Below are positions 6,913 through 20,495 of a stretch of DNA of 23,122 nucleotides, in pieces (position 1 is the stretch's first letter; the number at the start of each line of letters is the position of its first letter). This stretch comes from a virus. A program made the position numbers and the translations under genes. The notes under the pieces are model-generated. The model made no database searches. It was not told the origin of the DNA and saw nothing but the letters and a program-made list of their open reading frames with translations. The DNA lies in IMG/VR virus record IMGVR_UViG_3300017734_000081, positions 1 through 23,122 of that record. The stretch is one strand, 5' to 3'.

Positions 6913-7123
6913 TTTTCTTACTCGTAAGAAGTTTACCGCAATGGTTCTTGAGTCTGTACAAAGAGACAACCATTCTTATATAGATGCAATCGTACATCTA
7001 TGTGAAAAGAATAACATTGAGATAGAAGATATTAAGAAGTATATCTCTCCCGCAATCAAAGACCATTTAGAAGCAGAAGGAATGAGTCTAAATTTACTAC
7101 CCAAAGGTAATACCTTGTTTTGA
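6848..7123 (+). CDS. gp33: Probable gp33 late-transcription coactivator
   Basis: This 91-residue protein has a basic start and a helical core with SYIDAIVHLCEKNNIEIEDI (about 43-62), then KKYISPAIKDHLEAEGMSLNLLP. That helical pattern and the length agree with gp33-type coactivators of T4-like cyanophages. In T4, gp33 binds the beta-flap of RNA polymerase and links gp55 to the gp45 clamp at TATAAATA promoters. Two things support the call: its place two genes before gp32 (T4 keeps 33 close to 32) and the TATAAATA promoters in this window. The start at 6848 lies inside the previous gene and has only a weak ribosome site; a later start is possible. Confidence 0.6.
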   Translation: MTKSEKETIKKQKKEENVTEDNFLTRKKFTAMVLESVQRDNHSYIDAIVHLCEKNNIEIEDIKKYISPAIKDHLEAEGMSLNLLPKGNTLF

Positions 7124-7587
7124 AAACGGGTAAGGTTATACAACAAGAAGATATTCAAGACATATTAGAGTTAACAAAAATATCTAATATATCTGAAGCT
7201 CCAACTGCGGGTTCAAACTTAAACAAGTGGAGAAATAGTTTAAAGTATCAAATTGATTATCAGTTGTTTCCCGAACTATGTAAAACAATAGAAGACTTTA
7301 TTAATGACGGAACAAAAGTAAATCAGTTGGATTTATTACTTTATAAAGAAGGTCATTACTATAAGAAACATAAAGATGTTATCGAAGAAAGAAAAAGAAC
7401 TTGGACATCTATAACTATGATTGACAAAAAAGATTTGAAGGGTGGGGAAATAGTAGTTTATAATAAAGATAAAAACATTATTGATTTAGACATTGGAGAA
7501 ACTGTTATTTTTAAATCAAGTCTTTATCACAAAGCAAAAAAAGTTTTACACGGTACTCGTTTAGTTTTAGTTGCATGGTTAAATTAG
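7120..7587 (+). CDS. 2-oxoglutarate/Fe(II)-dependent oxygenase
   Basis: This 155-residue protein has the prolyl-4-hydroxylase-type 2OG-Fe(II) fold. His84 and Asp86 (HKD) with His137 (LYHKAKKV) form the iron-binding HxD...H set. Arg147 (GTR) sits where 2-oxoglutarate is bound, and GGEIVVY lies at 108-114. All key residues are present, so activity is expected; the substrate (protein, nucleic acid or small molecule) is unknown. The start is a TTG at 7120 overlapping the upstream TGA (TTGA), so translation is probably coupled. A later start would remove part of the N-terminal helical region but not the active site. Such enzymes are common in marine T4-like phages. Confidence 0.8.
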   Translation: MKTGKVIQQEDIQDILELTKISNISEAPTAGSNLNKWRNSLKYQIDYQLFPELCKTIEDFINDGTKVNQLDLLLYKEGHYYKKHKDVIEERKRTWTSITMIDKKDLKGGEIVVYNKDKNIIDLDIGETVIFKSSLYHKAKKVLHGTRLVLVAWLN

Positions 7588-7682: not shown

Positions 7683-8606
7683 ATGTCATTTGAAAACTTA
7701 AAGACCAATCGCACCGATGTCTCAAAACTAGTTTCTGCAGTGCAAGAAGCTACTGGTGCAACAACCCAAAAGAAATCTTACGAAGACGAAAGATTTTGGA
7801 AACCCACAGTAGACGAGTCTGGTAACGGTTATGCAGTTATTAGATTTCTACCAGCCGCAGAAGGTCAAGAATTACCATGGGTTAGGTATTTCGACCATTT
7901 CTTTAAAGGCCCTACTGGACAGTGGTATGTAGAGAAGTCTCTTACATCTATTGGACAGAAAGACCCACTTGGAGAACTGAATTCCAGACTATGGAACTCA
8001 GGTATCGAAGAAGATAAAGAAACTGCAAGGAAACAAAAAAGAAGATTGCACCACGTTGCAAATATCATGATTGTTTCTGACCCCGCAAACCCTTCCAACA
8101 ATGGTAAAGTATTCCTTTACGATTTCGGAAAGAAAATCATGGACAAAGTCATGGACGTAATGCAACCGCAATTTCCAGGCGAAGAACCCGTGAACCCTTT
8201 CGATTTTTGGAGTGGTGCGGACTTTGAACTTAAGATTACTAATGTCGCTGGTTATAGAAACTACGATAAATCTTCTTTCAAACCAGTGAGTGCATTGTAC
8301 GATGCAGATGAAACTAAACTAGAAGCAACTTATAACTCTATGTTTGATGTTGCAGAGTTTGTTGACCCAACTAACTATAAAACTTATGACGAGTTAAAAC
8401 AGAGATTGTCTGTTGTTCTTGGAGAAGCTGTTGGAGAAGGTTCAACTCAGAAAATGGAAGACTTAGGAAAGACTGCAGAAGCAGTAGAACCTAAAGGTGT
8501 AGAAACCCCAGTGGTTGCACCAAGTACTCCAGAACCAGAAGTTGCGTCAACTGAGTCTGACGATGAAACTTTGAGTTATTTCGCTAAACTTGCGAATGAC
8601 GAGTAA
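7683..8606 (+). CDS. gp32: gp32 single-stranded DNA-binding protein
   Basis: The 307-residue protein matches T4 gp32 along its core: FWKP...GNGYAVIRFLPA (about 39-60), PTGQWYVEKSLTSIG (about 79-93), ANIMIVSDPANPSNNGKVFLYDFGKKI (two segments around 124-151), GADFELKITNVAGYRNYDKSSF near 179-200, and an acidic Ser/Glu/Asp C-terminus that in T4 recruits replication and repair proteins. It coats single-stranded DNA in replication and recombination. The T4 zinc ligands (one His, three Cys) are not kept: the protein has no cysteine at all, as in other marine T4-like gp32s. Translation starts at an ATG with CGGAG about 8 nt upstream. A strong terminator follows. Confidence 0.95.
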   Translation: MSFENLKTNRTDVSKLVSAVQEATGATTQKKSYEDERFWKPTVDESGNGYAVIRFLPAAEGQELPWVRYFDHFFKGPTGQWYVEKSLTSIGQKDPLGELNSRLWNSGIEEDKETARKQKRRLHHVANIMIVSDPANPSNNGKVFLYDFGKKIMDKVMDVMQPQFPGEEPVNPFDFWSGADFELKITNVAGYRNYDKSSFKPVSALYDADETKLEATYNSMFDVAEFVDPTNYKTYDELKQRLSVVLGEAVGEGSTQKMEDLGKTAEAVEPKGVETPVVAPSTPEPEVASTESDDETLSYFAKLANDE

Positions 8607-8635: not shown

Positions 8636-8660
8636 CCCCACAGAAATGTGGGGTTTTTTT
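8636..8660 (+). terminator. Intrinsic terminator after gp32
   Basis: CCCCACA (8636-8642), a GAAA tetraloop and TGTGGGG (8647-8653) form a perfect 7-bp stem followed by seven T (8654-8660). It ends gp32 transcription before the opposed minus-strand gene. The minus-strand side has no good T run, so termination should be one-way. Confidence 0.9.
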
Positions 8661-10107
8661 AAAACCTTTTACCACGCATTATTGCACTACCACCACGCAT
8701 TCTTCTTCTATTGTTTATAGGTGGTTCAACCATAGAAGTCATAGATTGTGAGTTATCATTTGAAACATTATTATTAGTAGAAGTATCAATTATGGTTGGT
8801 GGTGGAGGCCCCATTTGTTCTAGTTTTGCAGCTTCATTTGCATCAATGTTTTCATTTATTGTAGTTGACGGTTTTGGTTTAACATCAATAAAATCTCTAT
8901 CAGGTGGTTCTATTCCTTGTCTTTTTTGTATTATATCATCTACTCTTTTTAGTTCTTCGATTAGTTTATCTCTTTCAACTCCTTCTTCTGTTTCTGCAAT
9001 TTTTTTCTCTAATCGTTCTCTATTTTTTATTTGACCAGCATCTACTGCTTTTGATGCATTATCTGTATCAAAGTATTCCATGTCAGCCATGTTTGTTAAA
9101 AACTCTGGAACTTCAAAACCTAATGCTTTTGCAATAGTCCCACCTATCGCACCTAGTTTTTTTCCTATCATTATAAAAATATTTAAGAAATGATTTACTG
9201 CATCTTTTAAACCACCTATAACAATTCCAAAAACTGAACCCATATCTCCTATACCAAGATTTTCTAAGTTCTTTTTAATCATAAAGAATATTCCAACTAT
9301 TGCTCCTATTGCGGCTGCGACTACTACAATGATAGGTAAGAAAGGTGCAACTGCAGCCATAATGGTTGTTCCCATAGTCATGAGTGAAGTCAGAAGTGCG
9401 GGAATAACTGCACCCCTAATAAATATTGCAGTCATTTGAAGACTCTTTAACATCGTCTGAAATTTACCACCCAATGTAAGTGCAACTTTTTTGAATGATG
9501 TAGCCATGAATAGAGTTGCAACTTTAATAAGTCCAGCTAATTTTGCAATTACACTCCACACTTTTGCAACTTTTAAAGCGGCCGCAGTTGCCATAAAACC
9601 TAATTTTATTAAACCAGTAAGTGCAAGAATAGATAAACCTGCTATAACAATCTTATCAAAGTTATCTTTTAAAAATGGTAATACTTTATCTTTTAAAAAA
9701 TCAAAAAAACTTTTTACTGCGGGAACAAACTTATCTTTAATAAATTCTTGAACACCTTCCATAGATAATAAACCTATTAGTGTTGCACCTAAGATTGCTT
9801 TGAATGCTCCTGACTTCATAAATTTATCAGTACCAGCACCTATACCAGCAATTGCTTTAAGAAATGAACCTTCATCGATTGGTTCTGGTTTAGGTTTTTC
9901 TTCTTCTTTTTTACTTTCTAAAGAATCTCCTTCTGCTTGTCTTTGTTGTGCAGTAAAGAAATCTCCAAAAGTTTTTGCAAGTCCACCTAATAATTGTTCT
10001 TGTACTCTTCTAGATTGTGCAATGTTTTGATTAAGATTAGAGTCTCTTTGTCTCTCTTCTTCGTTATTGGTTTTGAGTTGGTCTACAACTGCAGCTAAAG
10101 TGGTCAT
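8659..10107 (-). CDS. Candidate tail tape measure / gp29-like hub protein
   Basis: The 482-residue protein has a polar, Gln/Glu-rich helical start (1-75), then a long region (about 80-335) of alternating amphipathic and strongly hydrophobic helices (for example 155-175, 225-275, 290-315). After that come a coiled-coil-like charged segment (360-400) and a low-complexity end with PPPP and Asn/Ser runs, closing RRRMRGGSAIMRGKRF. This composition is typical of tape-measure proteins, and it directly follows gp26 and its frameshift tail, like the tape measure after chaperone genes in other tailed phages. In T4 that role is held by gp29 (590 aa), so this would be short. The ATG has no Shine-Dalgarno; TATAAATA lies 5 nt before it. 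Confidence 0.6.
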   Translation of the reverse strand: MTTLAAVVDQLKTNNEEERQRDSNLNQNIAQSRRVQEQLLGGLAKTFGDFFTAQQRQAEGDSLESKKEEEKPKPEPIDEGSFLKAIAGIGAGTDKFMKSGAFKAILGATLIGLLSMEGVQEFIKDKFVPAVKSFFDFLKDKVLPFLKDNFDKIVIAGLSILALTGLIKLGFMATAAALKVAKVWSVIAKLAGLIKVATLFMATSFKKVALTLGGKFQTMLKSLQMTAIFIRGAVIPALLTSLMTMGTTIMAAVAPFLPIIVVVAAAIGAIVGIFFMIKKNLENLGIGDMGSVFGIVIGGLKDAVNHFLNIFIMIGKKLGAIGGTIAKALGFEVPEFLTNMADMEYFDTDNASKAVDAGQIKNRERLEKKIAETEEGVERDKLIEELKRVDDIIQKRQGIEPPDRDFIDVKPKPSTTINENIDANEAAKLEQMGPPPPTIIDTSTNNNVSNDNSQSMTSMVEPPINNRRRMRGGSAIMRGKRF

Positions 10108-10111
10108 ACTA

Positions 10112-10306
10112 CTATTTATACTTACTCTCTAGTTTTTGACGTTCTTGTTCTTCTTTTTTTATCCATTCTGCTAATAAAGTTAAATATATTTCCCTTTCCC
10201 ACGGCCACATGTTTTCTATTTCAGTCAAACTATACTTGTAATGTGTGACCAAGTTAAAGTTTGTCTGATAATAATTATATAAACTATCATGAGAAAGGCT
10301 TAGGTA
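10112..10306 (-). CDS. gp51-like extension reached by -1 frameshift from gp26
   Basis: After the gp26 stop, the -1 frame stays open for 64 codons to the TAG at 10112-10114 and reads like a true protein: NYYQTNFNLV, then YKYSLTEIENMWPWEREIY and a charged helix KKEEQERQKLESK. The pattern (S/T)L.EIE.M.PWEREIY resembles short T4-like hub-assembly proteins (gp51 type) and tail chaperones. There is no ATG near its start; the only in-frame ATG is half way through. The frames meet at T_TTT_TTT (10306-10312). The predicted fusion is 300 residues. The TAG lies next to the late octamer for the next gene. Confidence 0.65.
   Translation of the reverse strand, partial: YLSLSHDSLYNYYQTNFNLVTHYKYSLTEIENMWPWEREIYLTLLAEWIKKEEQERQKLESKYK
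10113..10120 (-). promoter_or_regulatory. Late promoter TATAAATA, 5 nt before the tape-measure ATG
   Basis: The exact octamer on the minus strand is followed by GTAGT and then ATG. In T4 late promoters the octamer covers about -13 to -6, which would put +1 on the A of the ATG. Confidence 0.7.
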
Positions 10307-11013
10307 AAAAAATCCTGAATACCTTTTAACTTCAATTCATTATGATGTCCACAGTTAGAACAATCAAACTTGACATCTTTTTCCAGTGAGGGAATGGTGT
10401 CAACAAAATCTGTTATCGATTTAATTTGGTCACTAGTCATAGAGTCAATGAAATCATCAACTTCTTTTGCTGATACTTCACTTACATCTATTCTTTCATC
10501 ATCACTAATAACTGCACTGAAACATTCTCTAATAACCATAAAACCAAATTGAGTTTCTTGAATACCTTCCTTAAAGTTATCAATAAAAGTTTTGAAAGGG
10601 GGATACTGTAATTCTACTGAAATAGTATCTGTTAGTTCTACAGTACTTTCTATATTTTTTGGAACATCTATTGTAAGTTCAGAAAGGTTTATGTTCATTT
10701 CGTTTTTTGTTTTGCATTCTTGACAAATTAGATTTACGTTTACAGACTCACCAACAGACTTACCACGAATTTGAGTAAACATATACTCAATGTCAAAAGT
10801 GGTAAGTTTAGATTTAACGTATTCTCCTTCAACACATGCATCTATTGTATCCAACATTGCTTGCATTGCAGTTTTTTCGTCTTTTGTTTCAAATGCCATA
10901 AGAAGAATTTTTTCTTCTTTTACTAAGTATGGTCGAAACATAACAGTCTTACCCGTTGAGGGTACTACCATTTCGTGTTTAGGGGTTGCATTTAGTTTAG
11001 GTAATGCACTCAT
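10300..11013 (-). CDS. gp26: gp26-like baseplate hub assembly protein
   Basis: The 237-residue protein fits the T4 baseplate/gp26 family: MVVPSTGKTVMFRPYLVKEEKILLMA near the start (two short segments around 15-40), a helical middle and two CxxC pairs (Cys97/Cys100 and Cys218/Cys221) that could bind one or two metal ions. In T4, gp26 takes part in hub assembly. The ATG has AGGAG (complement of 11019-11023) at 5-nt spacing. The gene ends GATTTTTTTACCTAA, with a T7 slippery run two codons before the stop that allows a -1 shift into the gp51-like frame. It lies downstream of the gp54-like gene on the same strand. Confidence 0.75.
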   Translation of the reverse strand: MSALPKLNATPKHEMVVPSTGKTVMFRPYLVKEEKILLMAFETKDEKTAMQAMLDTIDACVEGEYVKSKLTTFDIEYMFTQIRGKSVGESVNVNLICQECKTKNEMNINLSELTIDVPKNIESTVELTDTISVELQYPPFKTFIDNFKEGIQETQFGFMVIRECFSAVISDDERIDVSEVSAKEVDDFIDSMTSDQIKSITDFVDTIPSLEKDVKFDCSNCGHHNELKLKGIQDFFT

Positions 11014-11042: not shown

Positions 11043-11837
11043 TTAAATTCCAAATAATGCTTTTCTCAATCCAGTTTTTACAGCTCTTGCACCTGCTTTC
11101 TTCACTGCAGATTTAGCTGCATCTTTCAATTTGTCTTTAACTCCAGTTGCTTCTAATAGTCTATCTTTAGTATTACCTTCAACTACTTCATATCGTTTGT
11201 AAGATAGTTGTACATTTACTTCTATCAATCCGTCAGGGTCATTATTTAATTCCATAGAGTTCATAGTAGTTGGAAATGCGTTTAATAATCTAGTAGAATA
11301 CGTCACTGCATCTGCAAGATACTTAGCGCCTGGTGCGATTAGGCCAGGGTCAAAATTACCATTTGCAATATCTAATGGGCCAATAGGTGGTATCAAGTCT
11401 TTGATTGCATCTGGTAAAGGATTATCAAATAGTTTCTTAGGTTTAATTAAAGGATTGATTGCACCCTTTCTAAGTGTTTGAATGACTACATCAAAAGTAT
11501 AATCCTTATAATATCCAACTTCTTGGGTTTCTTGATTGACTGCAAGGTTTTGCCAGTTCTCGAAGTAGTCTCTTACACGCATATCATTTAAACAATAAAA
11601 GGTTAAAGTAATATCTTCACTTGCATATCCATACGCAACCTTTTCATTGTTAAGTGCATATTGTCTTTCAGTTGTTAGTATTTGTCGGCCTGGAATACTT
11701 GCAACCTTACATAAGATATTTAAGTCTGTAGAGTTTACTCCACCAATCGGTGGTAAAAATACTCTCCATAAATTTGAAAATGCAAGACCGTCTCCAGCCT
11801 TTATGGTTGCAATCATGTCATCTACTTGATATCCCAT
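11043..11837 (-). CDS. gp54: gp54-like baseplate tail-tube initiator
   Basis: The 264-residue protein has the tail-tube fold pattern seen in gp54/gp48/gp19 relatives: NLWRVFLPP near 22-30, a Cys/Ala strand with IPGRQILTTE (48-57), YASEDITLTFYCLNDMRVRDYFENW (72-96, in two halves) and YYKDYTFDVVIQTL (109-122). A basic helical tail ends the protein. In T4, gp54 sits on the baseplate through gp48 and starts tube polymerisation. It is shorter than T4 gp54 (320 aa), and gp48 itself could be confused with it, but a better gp48 match lies at 12961. Its ATG overlaps the upstream stop by 1 nt (TAATG). Confidence 0.65.
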   Translation of the reverse strand: MGYQVDDMIATIKAGDGLAFSNLWRVFLPPIGGVNSTDLNILCKVASIPGRQILTTERQYALNNEKVAYGYASEDITLTFYCLNDMRVRDYFENWQNLAVNQETQEVGYYKDYTFDVVIQTLRKGAINPLIKPKKLFDNPLPDAIKDLIPPIGPLDIANGNFDPGLIAPGAKYLADAVTYSTRLLNAFPTTMNSMELNNDPDGLIEVNVQLSYKRYEVVEGNTKDRLLEATGVKDKLKDAAKSAVKKAGARAVKTGLRKALFGI

Positions 11838-14841: not shown

Positions 14842-16281
14842 ATGTCACAATCTTCGCAATTTTCTATAACTAAATGTCATATAACCGCAGATAGACTTGG
14901 TGGTTTTGATAAAAAGTTCTATGATGTTAAAAGTCAAATAATAGAACTTAATATCTATGAGAGTTTAGAGAACGCATTCCTATCTGGAACTATTTCAATC
15001 ATCGATGATAAAGGTTTATATGACATAATAAACTTTGACGGTACTGAAAGAATTAAAATTGAAATTGCGGGTATGGGTGAAAATGTTGACCCAGTATTTG
15101 AAAGAACCTTTATTATGACTGGTATTGATAACATGATTAAAGCAAAAGACAATGCAAGTGTTTTTGTCTTTGGATTGTTAGATGAACATGCATATGTCTC
15201 AGAAGTACAAAGACTTAGAAACTCTTATCGTGGTACATTGTCAGATATTATTGCAAAAATATCCGCACAATCACTTGACAAAGATATAGATGTATCATAT
15301 ACTTTAGACGGAAATCAACAAATCATTGACTCGGTACAAACTGAAATGCGAGTCATTGTTCCTAACTTAGCACCACTAGAAGCGATGCAGTGGTTATTAT
15401 CAAGAGCAACTACTAAGACGGGTTCTCCGTTTTATCTTTGGTCAACCGTTCATGATGACAATCTAAGACTTGGTAATTTAGATGTCATGTTAAAACAACA
15501 AGCATTTAATAGTAAATTACCTTATAACTATAATAGTGCAAACATTAGTACTGCAGAACAACAAAATGATTTTGCACAAGGATTTACAGTAAAGGCTATT
15601 GATGAAAGAGGTTCAGGTGATACTTTAACCCTTGCACAATCAGGTAGTATAAGTGCGGACTATTGTGTTACTAATTTAAATACTGGACAGATATTCATGA
15701 AAAAATATGATATCGATACTCTACTGACTAATTTAAATAATGAAGGTACAATCGACAAAAGGTTTCAGAATGTTTTTGACGATAAGTTTAAATTAAGAGA
15801 TAAACCCATAAACGAATATCGTAGTGCTATCATACATAATATAGTATCAAGTGGAACGTATGGAGAATATAAATCATACCATGATGAATACGATAAACCA
15901 TTGCATCTTAAAAAACTAGAAAGTAGTGCAATCAAAAATTTATTATTTAAAAATATGAGAACTGTTGTAGTTCCAGGCACCGCATTCTTTGTGGGTAAAG
16001 CTGCAGTGGGTGATATTGTTAATTTAAATATAAGAAACGATAATACTGAAAATCCAACGAATGAAGACAATACCATTGACCAGAATAAATCTGGACATCA
16101 TTTAATACATGATTTAAGACATACCTTTAGAGAAACCGCACACGAAGTGACCATGACCGTATGTAAACTCGAAAGAAAAGGAACTAAAGAGTCTAAGTTC
16201 TCAGGTAGAGGTGCAAAACAAAGATTAGAAATTAGAAAGAATAGTAGAGACTTAACCTTAAGAAATAAAAGATTGATATGA
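14842..16281 (+). CDS. gp27: gp27-like baseplate hub protein
   Basis: The 479-residue protein has the hub-protein pattern of gp27/VgrG N-terminal domains: IIELNIYESLENAFLSGTISIID (31-54, two strands with a typical ELxIYExI..PxLxGxIxIxD style), GTLSDIIAKI near 131, and VPNLAPLEAMQWLLSRAT at 173-190. In T4, the gp27 trimer forms the hub torus that carries the gp5 spike. It is longer than T4 gp27 (391 aa). Its place just before the gp5-like genes supports the call. The end is very basic (RLEIRKNSRDLTLRNKR). Its TGA overlaps the next ATG (ATGA). Confidence 0.8.
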   Translation: MSQSSQFSITKCHITADRLGGFDKKFYDVKSQIIELNIYESLENAFLSGTISIIDDKGLYDIINFDGTERIKIEIAGMGENVDPVFERTFIMTGIDNMIKAKDNASVFVFGLLDEHAYVSEVQRLRNSYRGTLSDIIAKISAQSLDKDIDVSYTLDGNQQIIDSVQTEMRVIVPNLAPLEAMQWLLSRATTKTGSPFYLWSTVHDDNLRLGNLDVMLKQQAFNSKLPYNYNSANISTAEQQNDFAQGFTVKAIDERGSGDTLTLAQSGSISADYCVTNLNTGQIFMKKYDIDTLLTNLNNEGTIDKRFQNVFDDKFKLRDKPINEYRSAIIHNIVSSGTYGEYKSYHDEYDKPLHLKKLESSAIKNLLFKNMRTVVVPGTAFFVGKAAVGDIVNLNIRNDNTENPTNEDNTIDQNKSGHHLIHDLRHTFRETAHEVTMTVCKLERKGTKESKFSGRGAKQRLEIRKNSRDLTLRNKRLI

Positions 16282-17165
16282 GTTATGATAATCCCATTCA
16301 AAGTGAGTTTTATGGAGATAATGTCCGTTGGTTTATTGCAACTGTCATAGATGCAAGTCCACCTTTTGGTTTTGAAGGACGAGTAAAGATAAGAGTACAC
16401 GGACTGCATTCTCCAGAAACATACTTATTACCACAACAAGATTTGCCTTGGGCTCAATGTGTTCTTCCTACTACAGAAGGTGGAATGTCTGGTATTGGTA
16501 AAGTACCTAAACTACAACCAAACGCACTAGTCTTTGGTTTCTTCATGGACGGAATGCAATCACAAACACCCGTTGTGGTCGGTTCATTACCACATATAGA
16601 GATACCTACATACTTACAAGACCAACAACAGAATGAAGATGTTGGAGACGATAGTAAACCTTCAAATGTATTTCAAAGTTTCGTGGGTTTCTTTGCACCT
16701 AAATTTAATGTTGATGATGAAAATAATACTTCTAATGCGAGACAACTTGCATTTGGTGGGACTCAGGATAGTCGAGTAAAATATGCAGTTCAGTTCTTCA
16801 TAAATATAGGATACACAGAAAACCAAGCACTTGCATTGACTGCTGGTTTATTTATAAAATCTGGTATGGCCACTGGTGGTTTTGGTCTTTGTGATTGGGA
16901 AGCAACTAGATTTAGAAGATTAAAAATGTTTAGTGATTTGTTTCATAGGTTTACCGTGCAAATATTTTTTGTTGCATTTGAATTGAGAAGTTTTAAGACA
17001 GATGCGAATATAAAATTACTTGCAACCGAAAAACTTGATGCAGATGACGGTGCATGTCAGATAGTTGCAAAAGATTATCTTGATAGTAGAAGTATAGTAG
17101 AACGAGAAGAATTAATTGGTTTAATAGAAGATAAAGCAAGAGAGTTAAAAGAAGATAATGAGTAA
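16278..17165 (+). CDS. gp5: gp5-like hub OB-fold protein with degenerate lysozyme domain
   Basis: Residues 16-106 form the gp5/VgrG OB-fold: RWFIATVID, FEGRVKIRVHGLHSP, LPWAQCVLPTTEGG, GIGKVPKLQPNALVFGFFMDG and PVVVGSLP. This domain sits under gp27 at the hub. Residues 167-268 resemble the phage tail lysozyme (Phage_lysozyme2) domain: VQFFINIGYTENQALALTAG, then FGLCDWEATRFRRL (202-215) and a helical end. At the GNLxxES active site the sequence is AGLFIKS, with Lys194 where the catalytic Glu is expected, so it is probably inactive. The beta-helix spike of T4 gp5 is missing here and found in the gene at 19020. Overlaps gp27 and the next gene by a few bases. Confidence 0.75.
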   Translation: MSYDNPIQSEFYGDNVRWFIATVIDASPPFGFEGRVKIRVHGLHSPETYLLPQQDLPWAQCVLPTTEGGMSGIGKVPKLQPNALVFGFFMDGMQSQTPVVVGSLPHIEIPTYLQDQQQNEDVGDDSKPSNVFQSFVGFFAPKFNVDDENNTSNARQLAFGGTQDSRVKYAVQFFINIGYTENQALALTAGLFIKSGMATGGFGLCDWEATRFRRLKMFSDLFHRFTVQIFFVAFELRSFKTDANIKLLATEKLDADDGACQIVAKDYLDSRSIVEREELIGLIEDKARELKEDNE

Positions 17166-19017
17166 TGAAGCACAGAAAAGAAGAATTGCACAACGTCATA
17201 TAAACTTTTACCTTCGAGGGTTCAACAAAGAAGATGCACAGGCTGCTCTGGAAAGAGGAGACTATGAAGAAGTTCAAGAAATAATACAGTTTAATAGAAA
17301 TACCAGATTAAATCATAACTTCGATGATGTTGAAGGTTATGATACTCCAACAGAAGTTGAACCACTTGAGATTACGGAGTCTTATAAGAATGAGGTAAAA
17401 ACTGGTGAGGGTACAATGCAAATTGTACCAGAAGAAGCATTCTCTACAGAAACTTTAGTAGACCCAAAGAAAGAATTACTTACTGCGGGAACAGTAAACT
17501 TTACTAATAACTTTGCAACTATTACAGACGGTAGTGTAACACCCACTGCAACAATTACTGGGGGAGATAGTAATCAACCCATATCAGAATTAATCTCAAG
17601 TTTGACTGGACACCCTTCTTTGAAAACTGAAAAGAAAAAATTTGGTATGAACTTAGTAGGTTCATCAAGTCCAGAAGGTATCAAAGCCGCAATGGATAAA
17701 GGTCAAGATTTATTAGGTAAAACAAACGATGCAATTAAGGCAGTACATGATGAGGCTGGTGGACTTAAGTTTGTAAAAAATAATTTAGGAGATGATGCGA
17801 AAGACAAAGCACTATCTGCAATTAAAAGTAAAATAAGTGGTTTACCAGATATCAATAAAGCAATTCCTAACCCAGAAGATTTAGCAGCAGGTATTGAAAA
17901 TCAAACTGGTAATAAACTATTAACTGCAAAGACCAAAGTTGCAAAAGCAAAACTAAAAAAGATTGCATCTGTAGTTGCACTAGTAGGAACTGTAGTTGCA
18001 TTCAAAGATAAGTTATCAGGTTTTGTTGATAAAGCAAAAAGTTTTGTAAAAGATAATTTAGCTAAAGTTGCAACTGGATTGATTGTGGGTGGTATTATAC
18101 AAGATATTTCGGAAAAAGTCAATAGTGGTATTAAGAATAAAATAACTGAAAACTTAGGTGCAGAACTACCTGCTAAAGTACAAGAAAAGGTCAATGAAAA
18201 AGTTGCAAAGGGTGATAAGAAGGGTGCAGCTGAAGAGATTAAAAAAGCTACTGGTAAAGTAGATGCTGACGGTAAAACTAGTCCAGAAACTAGTCAAGAT
18301 GACTTAGACCGTATCGATGATTTAGCAAGTCAATTAAATCCAACTATATCGGGTTCATTAGTTAGAGATGCAAGTTTTTATGGAGAACCAGTGAAACTAG
18401 GAGATAATATACCTAAGTGGGCTGGAGAAAGAACTGGAGATGAAGCATTTACTTATGTCGCATCTGTAGAAGAACTCAACTCAGAAATGATGTCAATTTC
18501 AAGAAAGATATCAGAAGTAATAATTCATGCAACCGAAACTGCAGAAAATAAAAACATCGGTTCAATCGAAATAAACAATATACATAAACAACTTAAACAT
18601 GACGGTATTGTTTATCATTATGTAATACGTAGAGACGGTAGATTACAAAGAGGAAGACCCGCAGATGTAGTATCAAACCATACTGCGAAGGAGAGTCATA
18701 ATAACTTCTCTTTGAGTGTTGCATTAGTCGGTGGAATAAATCTTCCTACGGGGGACGTAAATCCCTTAGACAACCGTTCTGAGACTGCATTCACAAGAGA
18801 ACAATATACCACACTTGAAAGATTTTTAGAAGCATTCTTTGTGAAGGTGCCTGGTGGACTAGTGTTTGGACATAATGATATAGAGATTGATGAACTAGAC
18901 CCATACTTTGATGTAAAAGATTATGTCGAAAAAAACTTTAGAAAGACTTATGATAGAGTAGGTAATACTTTTGAGTTTGAAGCACTAGACCCAGATGACA
19001 CGGAGATAAATAGTTAG
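17158..19017 (+). CDS. Hub-associated protein with C-terminal amidase domain
   Basis: This 619-residue protein starts with a short helical domain (RHINFYLRGFNKEDAQAALERGDYEEV, two segments in 13-39). A low-complexity region and a long Lys/Ala helical region (about 170-365) with a hydrophobic span (268-282) and a Gly-rich one (305-315) follow. Residues 452-595 form an Amidase_2/PGRP domain: IIHATE (His457), VYHYVIRRDG (485-494), SLSVALVGG and FGHNDIEIDELDPYFDV (570-586). His457, His572 and Asp581 can bind zinc; Asp581 stands where T7 lysozyme has Cys. A peptidoglycan amidase carried on the tail tip would help pass the cell wall. The Lys of the usual KxC/KxD motif is Glu579. Confidence 0.75.
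   Translation: MSNEAQKRRIAQRHINFYLRGFNKEDAQAALERGDYEEVQEIIQFNRNTRLNHNFDDVEGYDTPTEVEPLEITESYKNEVKTGEGTMQIVPEEAFSTETLVDPKKELLTAGTVNFTNNFATITDGSVTPTATITGGDSNQPISELISSLTGHPSLKTEKKKFGMNLVGSSSPEGIKAAMDKGQDLLGKTNDAIKAVHDEAGGLKFVKNNLGDDAKDKALSAIKSKISGLPDINKAIPNPEDLAAGIENQTGNKLLTAKTKVAKAKLKKIASVVALVGTVVAFKDKLSGFVDKAKSFVKDNLAKVATGLIVGGIIQDISEKVNSGIKNKITENLGAELPAKVQEKVNEKVAKGDKKGAAEEIKKATGKVDADGKTSPETSQDDLDRIDDLASQLNPTISGSLVRDASFYGEPVKLGDNIPKWAGERTGDEAFTYVASVEELNSEMMSISRKISEVIIHATETAENKNIGSIEINNIHKQLKHDGIVYHYVIRRDGRLQRGRPADVVSNHTAKESHNNFSLSVALVGGINLPTGDVNPLDNRSETAFTREQYTTLERFLEAFFVKVPGGLVFGHNDIEIDELDPYFDVKDYVEKNFRKTYDRVGNTFEFEALDPDDTEINS
19005..19012 (+). promoter_or_regulatory. Possible late promoter GATAAATA before the spike gene
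   Basis: GATAAATA lies in the end of the amidase gene, 7 nt before the ATG at 19020, similar to the close octamer-ATG spacing elsewhere in this window. It is within a coding sequence and not the full T4 consensus, so it may be chance. Confidence 0.3.
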
Positions 19018-19019
19018 TC

Positions 19020-20495
19020 ATGACTACTAAGAAAGACAATCTAGAAAATAGACTCAAACAACTTGGAGAAGGACAAGAGGAGAGTATCGGAGTACCCGAG
19101 GACGGTTTTCAAGACCCAACTGGTGAGTATCCAAAAAGGGATTACAACTTTGGTTCGGGAATAAACAAAGCTGCAAGGGGTACAAAGATAAATGACCTTT
19201 ATGTAAATGGTGGTGCAGAAGGTGTTCCACTAAACATTGAAGAACAAAGACCTTCTCGTTTTCCTTTCAATCAAGTAGATGAAACTCCTTCGGGACATGT
19301 CGTAGAATATGATGACACGCCTGGTGGAGAACGTATACTAATTAAACACCGTAAAGGTGCGGGTGTAGAAATGCGAGCAGACGGTTCGGTAGTTATTTCT
19401 GCAGTTAATAATAAAGTAGAAGTGACTGGTGGAGACCAAACTCTTATTGTCGAAGGTCATGGTAGTTTGGTATATAAAGGTAATTTAAATCTAACCGTGA
19501 CTGGTGATTACAATGTTGATGTCGGGGGTAATTACAATGTACAAGTTGGGGGTAATCACATAGAAGGTATCTCAGAGAACCATAGAACCTATGTAACCAA
19601 GAATTCTGAATATGTGACCAAAGGTACTAAGTCAACCAAAACAATTGGTAAACACACCGATATTATGTTATCAGATAATAATCAATACGTCAAGGGTAAT
19701 CAAAGAAACTGGATAGAAGGAGACAATGAGATTGCAGTAGAGAAAGATATGTCTGTATCTGCGAAGACTTCTCTTGCAATGACCAGTGAAGTATTCAATG
19801 CAACGGGTATCAAACAAGTATCTATCTTTGGACTCAAGGGTTCAATAGGTGGTAAGAATGTAAACTTTACTGGAGATGTCTTCATGGGTAATGCGGGTGC
19901 GAAACCGTTTACTAGTGGTGCATCATTCTATGGGTCTTTTCATGGACAAGCAACTGAGTCTATCTTTGGATTGTTTGCACATAATTCCCAGAATGCAGCT
20001 TTTGCTGAAGTGTCTGACCAAACAAACTCACAATCATATGCAGAAAATGCTACATCTGGTAGTACGACTGGAACTACTGGTGGTGCTCCAGATATTGCAA
20101 TAGACCAAGAAACGAATAAACCATTAGGGCCACCACCGATACCAGATATTGTTGCAGCTTATGGAACAGTCGGAGAGTTTGCAGTACGTGATGTATCAAT
20201 TGATAATGAAGATAAACTTAAGAACGCACTTGACTTTAGTGATGACTATCTAGGGTTCTTTGACCGACACCCAACAACTCAGGAGATTAGGTCAAAACTT
20301 AGAACAGATAGTAAAAGAGATGAACTTCTGGGACAAATGGTTGCAGAAGGTAGAGTAAGTAAAACATCATTTAGAACAAAACCAAAACGTATTGGTAGAG
20401 TTAGTGGTATAGAACCAACATCTAGATTTGGTTATACTGCAATAGGTAATGCAACGGAGAATAGGGGTAAAAGATTTACTCCGAAGAAACGATGA
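19020..20495 (+). CDS. gp5-C-like spike protein with beta-helix octad repeats
   Basis: The 491-residue protein has GHVVEYDDTPGGERILIKHR (92-111), typical of the start of gp5/VgrG spikes. Thirteen consecutive 8-residue units at 144-247 follow the VxGxxxxx pattern of the T4 gp5 triple-stranded beta-helix (examples: VTGDYNVD, VGGNYNVQ, VGGNHIEG, VKGNQRNW). A Gly/Phe-rich region with SIFG and MGNAG motifs follows, then a linker and a basic end. It should form the trimeric needle under the hub. In T4 this is the C-terminal domain of gp5, not a separate gene. Only 2 nt separate it from the amidase stop, and its end overlaps the next ATG (ATGA). Confidence 0.8.
   Translation: MTTKKDNLENRLKQLGEGQEESIGVPEDGFQDPTGEYPKRDYNFGSGINKAARGTKINDLYVNGGAEGVPLNIEEQRPSRFPFNQVDETPSGHVVEYDDTPGGERILIKHRKGAGVEMRADGSVVISAVNNKVEVTGGDQTLIVEGHGSLVYKGNLNLTVTGDYNVDVGGNYNVQVGGNHIEGISENHRTYVTKNSEYVTKGTKSTKTIGKHTDIMLSDNNQYVKGNQRNWIEGDNEIAVEKDMSVSAKTSLAMTSEVFNATGIKQVSIFGLKGSIGGKNVNFTGDVFMGNAGAKPFTSGASFYGSFHGQATESIFGLFAHNSQNAAFAEVSDQTNSQSYAENATSGSTTGTTGGAPDIAIDQETNKPLGPPPIPDIVAAYGTVGEFAVRDVSIDNEDKLKNALDFSDDYLGFFDRHPTTQEIRSKLRTDSKRDELLGQMVAEGRVSKTSFRTKPKRIGRVSGIEPTSRFGYTAIGNATENRGKRFTPKKR

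Follow-up and report, generated by a model that had tools for sequence, protein, structure and literature searches.

Genes and features at the gp26 locus

The window, by which we mean the whole 23,122-nucleotide stretch of DNA analyzed here, from an uncultured T4-like marine phage (IMG/VR record IMGVR_UViG_3300017734_000081), carries on its minus strand a gp26 gene whose 3' end overlaps an open reading frame in the -1 register. The features of the locus are listed below, where TAC refers to a tail assembly chaperone, TAC-N to its putative short form and TAC-NC to its putative long form.

11043..11837, minus strand: tail tube protein (gp19-like), directly upstream of gp26; phrog_45, E 3.5e-36
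11013..10300, minus strand: gp26, the putative TAC-N frame; 237 aa; PF12322 (T4_baseplate) and phrog_150
10327..10322, minus strand: SD-like AAAAGG, 9 nt upstream of the heptamer
10312..10306, minus strand: putative slippery heptamer T_TTT_TTT, in the register of the gp26 frame and one codon (ACC) ahead of the gp26 stop
10300..10302, minus strand: stop codon TAA of gp26 (0 frame)
10112..10306, minus strand: -1 frame, the putative gp51/TAC-C domain; 64 codons plus stop TAG (10114..10112), with no initiation codon near its start
10112..11013, minus strand: predicted gp26-gp51 (TAC-NC), the whole frameshifted product; 300 aa, virtual translation
10264..10294, minus strand: weak downstream hairpin, kept in near relatives only and not a family feature
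8659..10107, minus strand: candidate tape measure protein, directly downstream; 482 aa, weak profile matches

The gp26 gene ends GGT ATT CAG GAT TTT TTT ACC TAA, and the -1 frame encodes the 64-residue tail YLSLSHDSLYNYYQTNFNLVTHYKYSLTEIENMWPWEREIYLTLLAEWIKKEEQERQKLESKYK. The first-pass annotation had described the terminal GAT TTT TTT ACC TAA with its coordinates, register and frames, the 64-codon -1 frame lacking an ATG near its start, and the AAAAGG located about 9 nt ahead of the slip; all of these are found as it described them. The window is AT-rich and holds 15 T7 runs when both strands are counted, so a single run is not rare, and the significance of this one derives from its conservation, which is presented below.

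Elsewhere in the window, three consecutive ORFs (16278-20495, plus strand) appear to divide the T4 gp5 hub lysozyme among them, and an oxygenase-family gene adjoins a gp32-like gene:

16278-17165, plus strand: ORF with the gp5 OB domain
17158-19017, plus strand: ORF with an Amidase_2 domain
19020-20495, plus strand: ORF with the gp5 C-terminal trimerisation needle domain, scoring below the Pfam cut-off
7120-7587, plus strand: 2OG-Fe(II) oxygenase-family protein, adjoining the gp32-like gene
7683-8606: gp32-like ssDNA-binding protein

The two frames encode gp26 and gp51 protein families

Profile searches identify the products of both frames. The gp26 frame gives a full-domain match to PF12322 (E 5e-58, residues 11-235) and matches phrog_150 (E 2e-58). 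For the -1 tail the match is to phrog_634, the gp51 profile named 'baseplate hub assembly catalyst' (positions 58-118, E 6e-24), a comparison that bears out the gp51-like character assigned to it on first reading. A second match of the tail falls at the C-terminus of phrog_150, the gp26 profile (positions 236-278, E 5e-7), implying that this family includes proteins in which a single ORF holds both parts. The protein gp26 has long been catalogued as a subunit of the baseplate hub, and gp51 as a catalyst of hub assembly. The gene order in the window is tail tube, gp26, gp51 tail and tape measure candidate. This last gene matches tail length tape measure protein profiles weakly (phrog_1686, E 4e-4; phrog_305, E 8e-4), and a search of phage records found no sequence relative of it; its position, its length and the weak profile matches make it a candidate tape measure gene. 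At the corresponding location in phiM12 there is a gene whose annotation notes a similarity to tape measure proteins.

The fold of gp26 was modeled with AlphaFold2 (pLDDT 90, 32 sequences); the -1 tail was modeled as well and is predicted to be helical (pLDDT 80). In a Foldseek search of the PDB with the gp26 model, the two highest-probability matches are chains of the HK97 tail assembly chaperone 2ob9 (probabilities of 0.87 and 0.75, TM of 0.50 and 0.41 of the target), with an E-value of 0.48 for the match of probability 0.87. No match in this search has a significant E-value, and the matches of lower E-value have TM scores near 0.14. The resemblance of the modeled gp26 fold to the HK97 chaperone is thus suggestive. 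Among predicted viral structures the gp26 model matches mostly other gp26 proteins, and searches of PDB sequences with the gp26 and tail profiles found nothing relevant.

T4 gp51 resembles the predicted fusion in a single ORF

In T4, genes 26 and 51 lie apart on opposite strands, and gp51 is a single ORF whose residues 1-201 match PF12322, the family of gp26 (E 4e-52); a match to phrog_150 covers nearly its full length (E 3e-84). The virtual 300-residue fusion from the window aligns with T4 gp51 over residues 26-281 (E 5e-12) with no gap across the slip, and the fusion residues that span the slip in this alignment are GIQDFFYLSLSHDSLYNYYQTNF. The heptamer is absent from the gp26 end in T4 and Cronus, which have TTC TTT, and in an RB49-like phage, which has TTC CTT; in these T4-group phages gp51 is separate and full-length, so no slip is required. 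The first-pass annotation had counted a continuous ORF in relatives as evidence against a frameshift; T4 gp51 is such an ORF, yet it supports a fused long form. Of all the arguments, the alignment to T4 gp51 gives the strongest support to the view that the long product would be the functional form. It also bears on the cyanophages, in which gp51 was reported to be ~20% of the length of T4 gp51 and to be without the first ~200 residues (Sullivan et al. 2010, PMC3037559). The short cyanophage protein (~80% shorter) can be explained because the missing part would be the gp26 frame, joined to it by the slip.

Conservation of the probable slip site and coding selection on the -1 frame

The slip site is kept together with the -1 frame in 15/15 of the closest viral contigs, and in the 80 contigs that were found via the tail. 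The heptamer is also there in L007, a locus passed over by the filter behind the counts out of 99 loci given below. The cleanest test of conservation comes from a tail-blind set of viral contigs picked by gp26 alignment only: 80/80 carry an in-frame T_TTT_TT[T/C/A/G], located at the gp26 stop or at most 9 codons ahead of it, followed by a gp51-type -1 tail, where tails were judged by eye and one of them (L129) breaks off at the contig edge. The retention of T run and -1 frame in relatives, for which an alignment had been proposed at the outset, is therefore observed. Isolates with the slip site are P-SSM2, C48C1, metaG-MbCM1, S-CAM1, P-HM2, S-RSM4, S-CRM01, S-B68, KVP40, Ochrobactrum OC, phiM12, OLIVR6, RL2RES and Variovorax V45v66. 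Codon choice at the slip position is fixed as well. All 56 gp26 clusters (identity below 70%) have TTT for the first Phe and an NNT codon immediately ahead of it, whereas elsewhere in the same genes TTT accounts for 76% of Phe codons and T-ending codons for 76% of those for Asp, Asn and Ser(AGY). The probabilities of a fixed TTT and a fixed NNT by chance correspond to log10 P of about -10.6 and -9.0, values that treat the 56 clusters as independent. On this comparative evidence, the conservation of slip site and tail is not due to chance.

Two groups of relatives differ in the arrangement of the junction. The T_TTT_TTN heptamer is absent from Ackermannviridae-type relatives and Vibrio D510 (L024, L025, L030 and L117); the gp51-like -1 frame is still present in these loci, and three of them have a TAATG overlap. 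Aeromonas A8-29, which belongs to this heptamer-less group, has neither the heptamer nor an overlapping ATG. In a second group (L045, L052-L055, L073, L075, L085 and L094) the gp26 stop follows the slip by 8 codons, as compared to 0-2 elsewhere, giving a longer dual-coded overlap.

The -1 frame evolves as a coding sequence. Over 60 non-overlapping sequence pairs its pN/pS is 0.17, and its substitutions are concentrated in the third codon position (385, 190 and 906 at positions 1, 2 and 3, respectively). Judged by these patterns, the -1 tail is under purifying selection. It is also better conserved than gp26, with a mean column identity of 64% as compared to 45%.

An SD-like element precedes the probable slip site

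Where the window has AAAAGG, related loci retain an SD-like run of purines. Predicted anti-SD pairing peaks where the 9-mer ends 6-8 nt ahead of the slip, with a mean of about -6 kcal/mol, and is about 0 over most of the remaining preceding 90 nt, apart from a second, weaker rise near 29-35 nt; the window's own element is weaker, at -3.9 (measured on locus L001, which is identical in sequence there). The codons at the site encode a conserved (E/K/R)-G, and their synonymous usage is biased: GAG is preferred over GAA with an odds ratio of 4.2 relative to elsewhere (p 6e-11, an optimistic value since the sequences are related), and Arg is encoded by AGA in 12/12 cases. From its codon usage, the SD-like element shows the marks of codon-level selection.

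Downstream of the slip, consensus folding of 93 unique sequences found no conserved structure; the mean folding z is -1.1 versus -0.3 in a control region. The hairpin that the first-pass annotation had called weak is indeed so in the window (local z of about -1.4 to -1.9). A stimulatory RNA structure conserved downstream of the slip was rejected as a candidate, what remains being this weak hairpin ~17 nt downstream, present in near relatives only.

Alternative explanations for the junction

Could gp51 instead be a separate small gene with its own start, an internal ATG or one reached by termination-reinitiation, next to which the T run is incidental? A separate gp51 is annotated in many records, among them many cyanophages, an ATG lies near the start of the -1 frame in 28/99 loci, and in KVP40, a Rhizobium phage and S-CRM01 (L019, L023 and L028) the slip heptamer is accompanied by a TAATG start that overlaps the gp26 stop, making separate initiation possible there. 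However, in 54/99 loci the -1 ORF lacks any ATG, GTG or TTG as far as 10 codons beyond the slip, the gp51 genes annotated in P-HM2, S-RSM4 and C48C1 start within the conserved domain and so truncate it, no gp51 gene is annotated in metaG-MbCM1 and S-CAM1, and a separate gene leaves the conservation of the heptamer unexplained. Independent initiation as a general account is therefore very unlikely, although in the three phages with a TAATG overlap the gp51 domain might be produced in two versions, one fused and one free. In several of the records examined, gp51 is thus unannotated or cut short.

The homopolymeric nature of the site raises two further possibilities. RNA polymerase slippage on the T run, adding one base, would yield the same fusion from an altered mRNA, and T_TTT_TTT stands directly ahead of the stop in 25 of the 80 tail-blind loci. 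We nevertheless regard this as extremely unlikely because most loci have only six T's (TTTTTTC in 58/99), which is short for transcriptional slippage, and an SD-like element, such as the one conserved upstream, exerts its effect on ribosomes. A sequencing error or broken gene might likewise be suspected of a single-base homopolymer junction in a metagenomic contig, but the same kind of junction occurs in 174 unique loci, including the isolate genomes P-SSM2, S-RSM4 and KVP40, and purifying selection on the tail contradicts a broken gene; this explanation is refuted, its probability being practically nil.

We conclude that gp26 is very probably the short chaperone TAC-N, and gp26-gp51 its long form TAC-NC, produced by -1 ribosomal frameshifting. 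The first-pass proposal of a programmed -1 shift that makes gp26-gp51 near the candidate tape measure gene, as in lambda, is well supported by evidence that is comparative in kind; we infer the occurrence of slippage, its rate or efficiency, and the chaperone role. Briefly, most ribosomes would finish gp26 and release TAC-N, while a minority, probably paused by SD-like pairing, would shift two tRNAs back by one base on T_TTT_TTT. The slipped ribosomes would read the 64-codon gp51 domain to give the 300-aa TAC-NC. On the model of lambda gpG/gpGT, the tape measure protein would then be coated by many TAC-N and a few TAC-NC molecules, and these would bring in the tail tube protein.

Relation to known frameshift systems

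In E. coli dnaX, an SD-like stimulator is positioned ~10 nt upstream of the -1 heptamer. This is a cellular gene with an A_AAA_AAG heptamer and a downstream hairpin, whereas the gp26 family is without conserved downstream structure. Lambda slips on GGGAAAG, in contrast to the T_TTT_TTN and SD-like element of the gp26 locus. The scheme of short and long forms made by a -1 slip is the same in lambda gpG/gpGT, which we liken to gp26 by organization and not by homology. Vladimirov, Gautam and Davidson are said to have found in 2022 that several T4-like groups retain the frameshift and that in T4 itself genes 26 and 51 are separate.

In lambda, a short and a long form arise by a -1 slip near the gene end just before the tape measure gene (PMC5009743). 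In Pseudomonas phage Adele (Vandenendeviridae/Andersonviridae), TAC-N precedes the tape measure gene and has a -1 frameshift close to its end, at the T-rich motif GTTTTT (PMC12846349); these are other phage families with another motif, and their TAC-N is again likened to gp26 by organization, not homology. Poly-T slip signals in T4-like TAC-N genes are credited to Vladimirov, Gautam & Davidson (Virology 2022;566:9-15) by PMC12846349, and PMC10885494, citing the same work, states that the short and long forms are separate genes in some T4-like phages. As these papers represent it, T4-like TAC frameshifting had already been proposed in 2022, contrary to the first-pass statement that gp26/gp51 had no prior report, and the T4-like TACs gp26 (TAC-N) and gp51 (TAC-NC) of that work are the same protein families, with the same idea of short and long forms, as in the window. 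The present additions are likely to be how widely the signal is conserved, its SD-like stimulator and the explanation of the 'truncated' cyanophage gp51; the SD-like element may be new.

More tentatively, and as a proposal we think possible rather than probable, the TAC-N/TAC-NC ratio in marine T4-like phages could be set by the codon-selected SD-like element before T_TTT_TTN and not by downstream RNA structure, an SD-stimulated chaperone frameshift of a kind not known from tailed phages. If so, the 'short gp51' of cyanophages would be an annotation artefact. The putative SD-like stimulator offers a direct, testable handle on the ratio of short to long forms. The findings support the view that, in the very abundant marine T4-like phages, gp26 and gp51 represent the two versions of one tail assembly chaperone.
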